Positions 1,551-6,883 of a stretch of 37,042 nt of DNA are shown one piece after another. The translations under genes were made by a program, and so were the position numbers. The notes below the pieces were generated by a model, which was not told the origin of the DNA, did not search any database, and was given only the letters and a program-made list of their open reading frames with translations. The stretch's first letter is position 1; every line of letters starts with the position of its first letter. Origin of the DNA: an uncultured Alphaproteobacteria bacterium (lineage in GTDB: Bacteria > Pseudomonadota > Alphaproteobacteria > Methylaequorales > Methylaequoraceae); assembly GCA_902590895.1 (NCBI GenBank), contig CACIYM010000008.1:1-37042 (forward strand), given 5' to 3'.

Positions 1551-2630
1551 TTCAAATAACACGTATTTATTTTTTTCGTTTTTTAACTTTTTCTTTATTT
1601 TGTTTTTAGATGAGAGTTTTCCTAAAGACCAGATTGAAGCACCCCTAATTATTGGATTGTCATGATTTAAAAGCTTTTCCAATTTAATTTCTAAAATTTT
1701 TGAATTACTGTTACCGGAGGCAATAATTACATTTCTTAAAAAACTTATCCATCCAATTCTTTTTACTGGAGAATTACAAAAATATTTTTCAAATTTCTCT
1801 TTATCAAAATCCAAAAAGAAATTTAAATTTTTATATTCTTCGTTGGGAATTAAATCTTTATTTTTGGTTGGTTTTGCAAATTTATTCCAAGGGCATATAG
1901 ATAAGCAATCGTCACAACCATAAATTTTATTTCCAATTTTGTCTCTAATACTTATTGGAAAAGGGCCTTTATGTTCAATTGTCAAATATGAAATACATTT
2001 TCTAGCATCAATTTTATAGTCTGAAATAATAGCATTGGTGGGACAAATATCAATACAACTTCTGCATGTACCACAGTTATCATTTTTTGTTTTATCAACT
2101 GTTAAGCTTATTGGTAAAAATATTTCTGAAAGAAACAACCATGACCCGTATTCTTTAGAAACAATATTAGTGTGTTTGCCAAGCCAGCCAACTTTAGTTT
2201 TTTTTGCAAAATATTTTTCCATTACTGGTGAGCTATCAACAAAATATTTTGAATCTAATTTATGTTCTGTATATAACCAATTTTTAAATTCTTTAAGCTG
2301 TTTACCAATGACATCATGATAATCTCTTTGATGTGCATAAACACTAATATTAGCTTTTTCTTTAAAATCATTTTTCAATAATGGATTGAATCTTGGCGCA
2401 TAATTCAAACCTATTACAACGATTGTTTTAACTTCACTCCAAACTTTTTTTGGATTTATTTTTTTTTCATATTGATTTTCAAGCCAACCCATTTGACCAT
2501 GAAATTTTTTTTTTAAAAATTCCCGATATTCCATTTTTGTTTTGGTATCAACAATTGGTTGTGTGTATCCAATTACATCAAAACCTAATTCGGAAATTTT
2601 GTTATTTATCCTTTTTTTTAAATTCATCAT
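1533..2630 (-). CDS. queG: Epoxyqueuosine reductase QueG (cobalamin-dependent, 2x[4Fe-4S])
   Basis: CGTCRSCIDICPTNAI and CDDCLSICPWNKFA ferredoxin motifs, DSSPVMEKYFAKKTKVGWLGKHTN; C-terminal HEAT-like end. Confidence 0.93.
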   Translation of the reverse strand: MMNLKKRINNKISELGFDVIGYTQPIVDTKTKMEYREFLKKKFHGQMGWLENQYEKKINPKKVWSEVKTIVVIGLNYAPRFNPLLKNDFKEKANISVYAHQRDYHDVIGKQLKEFKNWLYTEHKLDSKYFVDSSPVMEKYFAKKTKVGWLGKHTNIVSKEYGSWLFLSEIFLPISLTVDKTKNDNCGTCRSCIDICPTNAIISDYKIDARKCISYLTIEHKGPFPISIRDKIGNKIYGCDDCLSICPWNKFAKPTKNKDLIPNEEYKNLNFFLDFDKEKFEKYFCNSPVKRIGWISFLRNVIIASGNSNSKILEIKLEKLLNHDNPIIRGASIWSLGKLSSKNKIKKKLKNEKNKYVLFELNSLS

Positions 2631-2655
2631 CGTTTTATTATGTTAATAAAGATAA

Positions 2656-3336
2656 ATGAAAAAAAATATGGATAAAGTAAAAAAAGGTTTAGTCTTATTA
2701 AGTGGAGGACTTGATTCAACTGTTACGTTGTCAATATGTAAAGAATCTAATATAGATATTCATGCCATGACATTTGACTACGGTCAAAGACATAAAGTTG
2801 AACTTGATTTTGCTAAATGGCAGGCAAAAAAATTTAACTGTAAATCTCATAAAATATTTAAAATTGATTTATATGGAGGTTCTGCGCTAACAGATAAAAT
2901 TGATGTTCCCAATAATAAGAATGTTGATTCAATACCTAATAATATTCCTGTAACTTATGTTCCTGGAAGAAATATAATTTTTCTATCATTTGCAGCTGGC
3001 TATGCTGAGTATTTGGACATAGAAGATATATATATAGGTGTTAATTCTGTTGATTATTCTGGCTATCCAGACTGTAGAGAAGAATTTATTAAAATCTTTG
3101 AAAAAACTATTAATATGTCCACAAAAAAAGGACTTCAGGGAAAAAAGTTTAGAATCATTGCACCACTTCAAAAACTAGATAAAAAAGAAATAGTATTAAT
3201 TGGAAAAAAAAATGGCGTTGATTTCTCTAAAACCTCAAGCTGTTATAATCCAATTAATATGCGAAAATGTGGATTATGTGATGCATGTCTTCTTAGAAAA
3301 AAAGGTTTTGATGAAGCCAATTTAGATGATAATTAG
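2656..3336 (+). CDS. queC: 7-cyano-7-deazaguanine synthase QueC
   Basis: LLSGGLDSTVTL PP-loop, FDYGQRHKVEL, VPGRNIIFLS, C-terminal zinc Cys cluster CYNPINMRKCGLCDACLLRKKGF. Confidence 0.95.
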   Translation: MKKNMDKVKKGLVLLSGGLDSTVTLSICKESNIDIHAMTFDYGQRHKVELDFAKWQAKKFNCKSHKIFKIDLYGGSALTDKIDVPNNKNVDSIPNNIPVTYVPGRNIIFLSFAAGYAEYLDIEDIYIGVNSVDYSGYPDCREEFIKIFEKTINMSTKKGLQGKKFRIIAPLQKLDKKEIVLIGKKNGVDFSKTSSCYNPINMRKCGLCDACLLRKKGFDEANLDDN

Positions 3337-3973
3337 AACTATGTATAAAGTTAAAGAAATTTTTAAGTCAATTCAAGGTGAGGGTTTTCATTCAGGAAAA
3401 ACGGCAGTATTTATTCGTTTTTCAGGATGTAACTTATGGAATGGGATTGAGAAATTCAGAAAAAGGGCGATGTGTAACTTTTGTGATACTGATTTTGTTG
3501 GAGTGGATGGTCAAAATGGTGGTGAGTATAAATTAGAAGATCTTATAAAAAAAACTCTTGAGATATGGGGTAAGAATAAATCATATCACGAAAAGTTTAT
3601 TGTTTTAACTGGTGGTGAACCTCTGTTACAAGTTGATACACAATTAATTAAAGAATTAAAAAAAAAAAACTTTTACATTGCTTTAGAAACTAATGGAACT
3701 ATTAAAACAAAATTAAAATTTGATTGGGTTGTTGTTAGTCCTAAAGAAAATGCATCTTGGAATTTAAAAAATGGTGATGAACTGAAAGTTGTATATCCAC
3801 AAAATAAAATTAATTTAAAAAAAGCATTAGATCTTAAATTCAAATATTTTTTTCTTCAACCTATGGCTAACGAGTTTAAACAACTAAACATTATAAAAAC
3901 CTTAAATTATTGCAGATCTCATAAACCATGGTTTCCAAGTTTTCAAATTCATAAATCGTTAGGAACAAGTTAA
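3326..3973 (+). CDS. queE: 7-carboxy-7-deazaguanine synthase QueE (radical SAM)
   Basis: KEIFKSIQGEGFHSGKTAVFIRFSGCNLW...CNFCDTDF radical-SAM cluster variant typical of QueE; TGGEPLLQ. Confidence 0.94.
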   Translation: MIIRTMYKVKEIFKSIQGEGFHSGKTAVFIRFSGCNLWNGIEKFRKRAMCNFCDTDFVGVDGQNGGEYKLEDLIKKTLEIWGKNKSYHEKFIVLTGGEPLLQVDTQLIKELKKKNFYIALETNGTIKTKLKFDWVVVSPKENASWNLKNGDELKVVYPQNKINLKKALDLKFKYFFLQPMANEFKQLNIIKTLNYCRSHKPWFPSFQIHKSLGTS

Positions 3974-4329
3974 TGATCATTTATAAAAAGTACTTTTTTG
4001 ATGCAGCTCATTATATGCCAAATTTTAAAAAAACTCATAAATATGCTAAAGTACACGGTCATAGTTATGAGATGATTATTAAAATATCTGGAGATCCTGA
4101 TAAAAAAAATAATTGGATAATTAACTATGATGAAATTGATAATATAATTGTCCCCATTGTAAATAAACTTGACCATAGGACATTAAATGAAATTTCTGGT
4201 TTAGAAAACCCAACGGCTGAAAATATAGCCAAATGGTTTTGGAAACAAATTAAAAAAAAAATCAACAATTTAACGAGCATTGAAATCTATCGACCAAGAA
4301 TTGGTGGATGTATTTATGAAGGTGATTGA
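3973..4329 (+). CDS. queD: 6-carboxy-5,6,7,8-tetrahydropterin synthase QueD
   Basis: FDAAHYMPNFK, VHGHSYEM zinc-binding His residues, LDHRTLNE, PTAENIAKW; TAATG overlap with queE. Confidence 0.93.
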   Translation: MIIYKKYFFDAAHYMPNFKKTHKYAKVHGHSYEMIIKISGDPDKKNNWIINYDEIDNIIVPIVNKLDHRTLNEISGLENPTAENIAKWFWKQIKKKINNLTSIEIYRPRIGGCIYEGD

Positions 4330-4411
4330 ATAGTTTAACTTAACTTAATTTGAGTCGTTATTTTTGATAATGGAAGTATAAAGTTAATGGAGGTAGTTAA
4401 GAGGAAATAAA

Positions 4412-5260
4412 ATCCCTTCAGTTTCCAATATTTCAATTGGTGTTAATATGGCTGCTGCCGCAGCTAACAAAGCTCGACACGGAATGAATGAGTCAATTAC
4501 CAGACTGTCTACCGGTGTTAGAGCCATGTACGGTGCTGACGCTGCTGGTCACTCAATGGGTAAAAGCATTCAAGCCATTGGCCAAAGTTATGCGAAGGCA
4601 GCACGTAACATTGAAGATGGTATTTCATATGCACAAATGGGTGAATCAGTTCTTTTAGAAGTTGCTAATTTAGCAATAAGATTAAGAGAATTAGGAACTG
4701 CTTCGCATACCAATGTGGTTCTCATACCAAGTATAGGGTTTAGTCGAGAAACTCCTGCTTATGGTATGGTGTTAATTGATGTTCATCAAAATGCTGCAAT
4801 ACAAGCAGAGGCAGAATTAATTTATGATACTGTAGACCAAATTCTTGATACAACTGACTTTAACACAGTTGAAGTTGTTGATGGTAACAAAAAAAAACAA
4901 GTAAACATAGCTTATGGACCATTGACAGCAAATGTTACTGCCGTTGGTCCTAATCAGCTCTTAAGTATATTGAACGGTCAGTATGATGTCTTTAACATAG
5001 GGCTTGCTGATAGTTTATTTGCAGAGGTTGCAGAGGGTCTTGGAAACATTGCTGCTGATTTAACAGCGCTTAAAGCATTCCAAGGAGCCGCTTCAGCAAC
5101 AGGTGCAAATATGGCTGCTGCTGGTGCACGATTAATTGACACAGACTTTGCTCTTGAAACGGCAAGTTTGGCAAAAAATATGATCTTGAATCAAGCTGCA
5201 TTAGCTATGGCTACTCAAGCAAACGCAACTCAATCGTCTATATTGTCAGTTTTATTGTAA
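4412..5260 (+). CDS. Short flagellin (D0/D1 only); true start probably upstream of the first ATG (4448), see findings
   Basis: ESITRLSTGVR, NIEDGISYAQMGESVLLEVANLAIRLREL, and C-terminal DTDFALETASLAKNMILNQAALAMATQANATQSSILSVLL are classic flagellin N/C D0-D1 motifs. In-frame codons upstream of ATG-4448 read IPSVSNISIGVN, completing the flagellin N-terminus. Confidence 0.88.
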   Translation: MPSVSNISIGVNMAAAAANKARHGMNESITRLSTGVRAMYGADAAGHSMGKSIQAIGQSYAKAARNIEDGISYAQMGESVLLEVANLAIRLRELGTASHTNVVLIPSIGFSRETPAYGMVLIDVHQNAAIQAEAELIYDTVDQILDTTDFNTVEVVDGNKKKQVNIAYGPLTANVTAVGPNQLLSILNGQYDVFNIGLADSLFAEVAEGLGNIAADLTALKAFQGAASATGANMAAAGARLIDTDFALETASLAKNMILNQAALAMATQANATQSSILSVLL

Positions 5261-5267
5261 TAAGAGT

Positions 5268-5290
5268 GAATTACAATTTACTTTTAATTC
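5268..5290 (+). terminator. Possible weak hairpin 3' of flagellin
   Basis: GAATTA-N11-TAATTC perfect 6-bp inverted repeat followed by TTTAAG; AT-only stem core, no strong U-tract. Confidence 0.25.
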
Positions 5291-5310
5291 TTTAAGTTAG
5301 AACACAAACT

Positions 5311-5766
5311 TTATCTTCCCGAATACGTATTTATTTTAAAATCCTCTAAATGAATATCTTTTGGTTTTTTGCCGTTTTGATAAAATACATCAATGGGAAT
5401 ACCCCCTCTAGGATTCCAAAATCCAGCAATTCTTAGCCACTTGGGTTTAATAGATTTCTCAACTGATTTAGCTATTTTTATTGTACATTCCTCGTGAAAG
5501 CCACCATAGTTTCTAAAAGAAAATAAAAACAGTTTAAAAGATTTACTCTCAACAATTAATTTATTAGGTACATAATCAATAATTATTATACCAAAATCTG
5601 GCTGACCAGTAACAGGACAAATTGAAGTAAATTCAGGAGCAGTCAATCTTACAACATAATCGCTTTTGGGATGGGGGTTATTTACGCTATCTAACTCAAA
5701 GTCAACTGGTGAGCTTGGAGTTTTTTTTATTTTTCCTAGATATTTAGTTTTTTTTAAACGACTCAT
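5311..5766 (-). CDS. queF: NADPH-dependent 7-cyano-7-deazaguanine reductase QueF
   Basis: TAPEFTSICPVTGQPDFG (catalytic Cys/Asp), ESKSFKLFLFSFRNYGGFHEECT. Confidence 0.95.
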   Translation of the reverse strand: MSRLKKTKYLGKIKKTPSSPVDFELDSVNNPHPKSDYVVRLTAPEFTSICPVTGQPDFGIIIIDYVPNKLIVESKSFKLFLFSFRNYGGFHEECTIKIAKSVEKSIKPKWLRIAGFWNPRGGIPIDVFYQNGKKPKDIHLEDFKINTYSGR

Positions 5767-6883
5767 GATTTTTTAAATATTTTTTTTTTAGACTTTTGAA
5801 GCGTTTATTAATAATTGAAACTCTTATTTCATCCATCATTTTTTTATAATAAGCAATGTTGTGCAAGCTTAATATCATTGATGATAAAATTTCATTACTT
5901 TTTGTCAAATGATGAAGATAGGATTTTGAAAAGTTAGTCGATGCATAACAATCGGTTGTTTCATCCAATAAGCTTTTATCACTGGCATATTTAGCATTGC
6001 GTAAATTAATTTCACCTTTATCTGTAAAAGCTCTACCGTTTCTTCCAAATCTTGTTGGCAAAACGCAGTCAAACATATCAATGCCGTTTTCAACTGAATA
6101 AAATATATCAACTGGTCTTCCAACGCCCATTATATACCTTGGTTTTTCAATATCTATATGTTGAGTAGTTTCTTTTACAACATTTATCATCTGTTCATGG
6201 TTTTCGCCTACTGATAATCCTCCTAGTGCATAACCATCAAATTCTATTTCATTTAATATTTTCGTACTTTCTTTTCTCAAATCACCAAACATTCCTCCCT
6301 GAATTATCCCAAACAATCCATAACCCTTTCTTTTAGTGAAAGCTTTTTTACATCGCTCTGCCCATCTCATACTTAATTCCATTGATTCTTTTGATCTAGC
6401 ATAAGTTGCAGGATACTCTGTACATTCATCAAGAACCATTGATATTGTTGAATTCAATTTTTCTTGAATTAAAATTGAACTCTCTGGTGTAAGTTTATAT
6501 TTTTTTCCATCTACATGTGAAGAAAATTCAATACCTTTTTCTTTTATGTTTCTTAATTTTGATAGCGACCATACTTGAAAACCTCCAGAGTCGGTTAAAA
6601 TTGGTTTTTCCCAATTCATAAATTTTTGTAATCCAGAAAATTTTTTTATTAGTTCCTCACCGGGTCTTAACATTAAATGATATGTATTAGCTAAAATTAT
6701 TTCGATGTTCAGTTCTAAAAGATCTTTTGGAAAAATACCTTTAACTGAAGCTGCAGTGCCCACCGGCATGAAGACTGGTGTTTTTATATTACCATGAATA
6801 GTTTCTATTATTCCAGCTCTTGCTTTTTCATCACTTGCCTCTAATTTGAAATTGAATGGTTTTAAGTTTTCCATAATAAACAA
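5744..6883 (-). CDS. tgt: Queuine tRNA-ribosyltransferase Tgt
   Basis: TPVFMPVGTAASVKG, LANTYHLMLRPG, ILTDSGGFQVWSLSKLR, GIIQGGMFGDLR, MGVGRPVDI. The usual C-terminal CxCxxC zinc motif region reads DCYAST. Confidence 0.94.
   Translation of the reverse strand: MFIMENLKPFNFKLEASDEKARAGIIETIHGNIKTPVFMPVGTAASVKGIFPKDLLELNIEIILANTYHLMLRPGEELIKKFSGLQKFMNWEKPILTDSGGFQVWSLSKLRNIKEKGIEFSSHVDGKKYKLTPESSILIQEKLNSTISMVLDECTEYPATYARSKESMELSMRWAERCKKAFTKRKGYGLFGIIQGGMFGDLRKESTKILNEIEFDGYALGGLSVGENHEQMINVVKETTQHIDIEKPRYIMGVGRPVDIFYSVENGIDMFDCVLPTRFGRNGRAFTDKGEINLRNAKYASDKSLLDETTDCYASTNFSKSYLHHLTKSNEILSSMILSLHNIAYYKKMMDEIRVSIINKRFKSLKKKYLKNHESFKKN

Follow-up and report, generated by a model that had tools for sequence, protein, structure and literature searches.

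Introduction

AUU start codons are found in the bacterial genes infC and pcnB. The terminal segment of flagellin is required for filament assembly. For sigR of Streptomyces, a GTC start that is repressed through IF3 has been described (PMC5472188). A start-codon reconstruction, whose counts are affected by annotation bias, traced 61,358 ancestral AUG codons and listed 363 switches to GUG, 113 to UUG, 2 to CUG, 1 to AUU and none to AUC (PMC5622118). The counts nevertheless agree that AUC would be a highly unusual functional start codon.

In this study, a flagellin gene with ATC at the expected start position was analyzed in the window, the whole stretch of 37,042 nucleotides. The gene resembles infC, pcnB and sigR in having a near-cognate or non-standard codon at the expected start together with a Shine-Dalgarno-like sequence. 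It differs from them in that the ATC occurs in one genome only, the Shine-Dalgarno is weaker than that of the relatives, and the start is not conserved. It also resembles start-loss pseudogenes and ectopic duplicates in its displaced position, lost start codon and several further drifted positions. Unlike in such pseudogenes, the reading frame remains open over its entire length, and any decay would have to be recent.

Results

The flagellin gene lay on a genome-specific insert of about 975 bp (about 4332..5305, forward strand). The left neighbor was queD (3973..4329, forward strand) and the right neighbor was queF (5311..5766, reverse strand), identified from the list of open reading frames and the gene order of relatives. 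queC, queE and queD were located to the left of the insert, and queF, tgt and queA to the right. When the window was compared by blastn with the que locus of the relative G001, positions 2473-4331 and 5306-6776 were matched, and 4332-5305 had no match. The que genes of G001 were 85-87% identical in DNA to those of the window, and its QueD protein was 94% identical. There queF followed queD directly, and the empty site aligned cleanly on both sides. queD and queF were adjacent, with no flagellin between them, in all 27 relatives of the same GTDB family in which queD was found. Neither gene was found in G002 (92% completeness), G003, G016 or G030, which may be due to loss of the queuosine locus or to assembly gaps.

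The insert contained a flagellin-type promoter a few bases after the left border, a leader and one flagellin gene, in that order. The window flagellin was thus outside any flagellar cluster, whereas flagellins A and B of the relatives formed a tandem within the flagellar cluster; such a location is a usual, not a defining, flagellin trait. In the initial annotation, the gene was regarded as the main flagellin, a protein made in huge amounts. A displaced duplicate is more likely, because the gene is ectopic between queD and queF and absent from the 27 relatives. The displaced gene is more striking than the ATC codon. An origin of the insert as part of a phage was considered and rejected: viral contigs gave no relative, either by protein or by DNA pattern. 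An inverted repeat, ATTGTAAT...ATTACAAT, was present at 5254-5278, comprising the gene end and the following bases, close to the right-hand limit of the copied coding sequence; its folding energy was not unusual. The idea of a strong terminator hairpin downstream of the flagellin was rejected, because the fold did not outperform shuffled sequences (z = -0.95).

As contig C8, the window belongs to a draft genome of 1.07 Mb and 43 contigs that is 70.75% complete. The window flagellin was the only complete one in the assembly, whereas relatives have several; this incomplete assembly probably lacks the normal flagellin cluster. flhA, for flagellar export, was intact in this genome, and a stretch of flagellar genes was present on contig C22, so the lineage looks flagellate from its gene content. 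On C22 (L044, G000:C22 1-883), flgL broke off after about 100 codons and ran on, without a change of frame, as an ABC transporter ATPase, with the junction near 580. The equivalent region of G002 was 90% identical, with flgL inside an open frame of 430 aa. The joint fell in a shared stretch around ACATCGTT and is either a deletion or an amplification or assembly chimera.

The flagellin reading frame comprised 282 codons (4412..5260, forward strand) and belonged to clade A of the family flagellins. Its stop codon (5258-5260) was in frame with both ATC 4412 and ATG 4448. The frame was closed upstream by TAG 4394-4396 and carried ATC at 4412-4414, both as the initial annotation had stated, and it had no ATG, GTG or TTG ahead of 4448. 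The open reading frame was therefore called from 4448. ATC was followed by CCT TCA GTT TCC AAT ATT TCA ATT GGT GTT AAT ATG, so that 12 codons counted from 4412 precede ATG 4448. This ATG (4448..4450, forward strand) corresponded to codon 13 of the homologues and had no Shine-Dalgarno before it. Residues 2-12, PSVSNISIGVN, aligned without gaps with M-PSVSNIAIGAN of family members. Alignment with the homologues was possible throughout codons 1-95. The earlier view that 4448 omits the conserved N-terminus was confirmed by this alignment, on which the 12-codon extension is judged not to be due to chance. The N-terminal peptide predicted from the 4412 frame is PSVSNISIGVNMAAAAANK.

When translated from 4412, the protein scored 40.0 bits for Pfam Flagellin_N (PF00669; cut-off 26.6) and 29.3 bits for Flagellin_C (PF00700; cut-off 23). 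Both terminal domains were above the curated cut-offs, and a standard start before the conserved N-terminal segment was absent. The PF00669/PF00700 family definition needs no standard start, and the sequence therefore still counts as a flagellin, although perhaps one that is not expressed.

Comparison with relatives had been proposed as the check on the ATC codon. In the same GTDB family, ATG stood at the equivalent of 4412..4414 (forward strand) in 25 of 25 MPSVS/MTSVS-type flagellins read, which included tandem A and B; more distant cluster paralogues begin differently (e.g., SNLMVPFN..., apparently with TTG) and are uninformative for 4412. Because all 25 have ATG, ATC is best read as a derived change, unique to this genome in the sample. 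Among the three options offered earlier, a change of ATG to ATC, by mutation or error, was supported, and a conserved non-canonical start was rejected on the same 25 sequences.

The closest family member was flagellin A (e.g., G003:C31:10639-11436 and G002:C17). It had the same domain architecture, and the window protein was about 67-74% identical to the same-genus copies. In the tree, the window flagellin grouped with flagellin A of G002 and G003 (support 97/97). The flagellin A of relatives lies behind flagellin B, whereas the window copy lies between queD and queF, with a promoter and leader of the B type before the A-type gene. The window copy further differed from flagellin A in its ATC, in an 18-codon insertion (4712..4765, forward strand) and in its last codon. 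The insertion was in the variable middle domain and was lacking in the homologues. No second copy of the flagellin gene or of this insertion was found in this genome. The last codon (5255..5257, forward strand) was TTG for Leu, where 20 of 20 aligned homologues had Gln.

A late-flagellar (sigma-28-like) promoter motif, TAAC-N14-GTCGTT, was located at 4336..4359 (forward strand), its function being predicted from motif comparison. It was the single TAAM-N14-GTCGTT site in the whole window. The form of the relatives, TAAA-N14-GTCGTT, had 22 exact occurrences when 294 kb of their flagellar loci were counted on both strands, and one -35 base of the window motif departed from this 22-site consensus. 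Across the family (flagellar loci L033-L045), these sites preceded many flagellar genes, and TAAA-N14-GTCGTT is predicted to be a sigma-28-like promoter.

The 5' leader (4360..4411, forward strand) resembled that of flagellin B, the first gene in the flagellin tandem of the relatives, including the repeated motif GTTAATGGA. In the window, GTTAATGGA was found at 4383-4391, and ATGGA motifs at 4370-4374 and 4387-4391. The leader repeat GTT[AG]ATG(G)A sits in the flagellin B leaders of L034-L043 (e.g., L042 and L043) and at 4383-4391 of the window; 14 copies were counted in the leaders of nine relatives, versus 0.12 expected in mononucleotide shuffles. The repeat looks like a post-transcriptional control site. 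FlbT and CsrA were considered as regulators and rejected, since searches of 12 and 14 genomes, all incomplete, yielded no member of either family.

The Shine-Dalgarno-like sequence before ATC was a weak GAGG (4401..4404, forward strand), with four contiguous matches to AAGGAGGT, versus 5-6 in ten A-type orthologues, which had AAGGAG- or TAGGAG-type sequences ahead of ATG. It was the weakest of the set compared. This element, 7 nt ahead of ATC, is not ideal as described earlier, because it matches fewer bases than in the orthologues. A seven-codon upstream open reading frame, ATG GAG GTA GTT AAG AGG AAA TAA (4387..4410, forward strand), was read directly, with its stop ending one base ahead of ATC 4412. 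It is probably due to chance.

Three columns that were invariant in the other 20 sequences were changed in the window flagellin, namely the start, residue 273 (A to T) and residue 282 (Q to L); this count is weak alone, as equal or higher numbers were seen in several orthologues. The terminal branch was 2-3 times longer (0.41) than those of the sisters (0.12 and 0.18). The lineage-specific nonsynonymous:synonymous ratio was 59:33, versus 27:37 in the G003 orthologue (p = 0.009). With G002 in place of G003, it was 57:40 versus 35:26 (p = 0.87), and the nonsynonymous excess vanished. Most of the excess fell within the variable domain, and testing region by region gave no significant result. dN/dS in the terminal core was 0.11 against G003 and 0.11-0.18 against both same-genus orthologues, which matched the level between the orthologues. 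The frame was free of stops over its 282 codons. The frame survived simulated neutral drift of 20 substitutions in 44% of runs, and of 60 substitutions in 12%. The open frame is compatible with recent loss, and by these proportions only recent decay fits. The start codon, Shine-Dalgarno and -35 element all departed from the family pattern, which corresponds to the disabled expression signal of a pseudogene.

Discussion

The results suggested, with moderate confidence, that the window flagellin is an ectopic, lineage-specific copy of flagellin A that recently lost efficient translation, and is now either a nascent pseudogene or a near-silent minor flagellin. A plausible route would be recombination between the near-identical starts of flagellins B and A, deleting B, followed by relocation. 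The A-type copy would have been inserted between queD and queF with its own flagellin-type promoter and leader. ATG may have changed to ATC after or during the move, while the Shine-Dalgarno, -35 element and C-terminus drifted. The moved copy may still be transcribed. Its translation would be very poor or zero, given the weakening of both the start codon and the Shine-Dalgarno.

Alternatively, the ATC could be an error of sequencing, whole-genome amplification or assembly. The true codon would then be ATG, and the copy a working displaced flagellin. The fragmented and incomplete draft and the second odd junction, at flgL on C22, are in keeping with an error. In addition, G002 of the same genus has the look of a single-cell genome, and the present genome may be one too. 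However, the remaining conserved open reading frames of the window were full-length, and promoter, leader and gene stood in the right order, unlike in a random chimera. The flagellin copy also carries several independent blemishes besides ATC, and a base error that hits exactly the start codon would be expected, a priori, far less often than a displaced duplicate truly losing its start. An error is therefore considered doubtful.

Genuine initiation at AUC, giving a functional minor flagellin at low level, perhaps aided by re-initiation from the seven-codon frame, is unlikely. The open frame, conserved core and intact flhA agree with a functional protein, and GAGG lies at 7 nt with the upstream frame ending beside the start. 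However, none of the 25 homologues of this start type uses a codon other than ATG here, and non-AUG switches other than to GUG or UUG are extremely rare (PMC5622118). Compensation for a poor codon would require a strengthened Shine-Dalgarno, whereas the one found was weakened, and AT-rich leaders of this kind often contain short upstream frames by chance. It is less probable still that AUC initiation of the relocated gene, perhaps through termination-reinitiation at the seven-codon frame, has made a scarce minor subunit out of what was a bulk filament protein. If AUC initiation were true, the gene would be a rare natural case beyond the few known bacterial genes.

Translation from ATG 4448, which would yield flagellin minus its first 12 residues, uses the earliest standard start codon in frame, but it is very improbable given the lack of a Shine-Dalgarno there and the removal of the conserved beginning of the terminal segment, which every homologue has.

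The locus is also a warning that gene callers will silently clip this flagellin to the wrong start, 4448. If the window flagellin is the decaying duplicate favored above, it would represent a routine stage of turnover among the multiple flagellin copies of a streamlined marine alphaproteobacterium.
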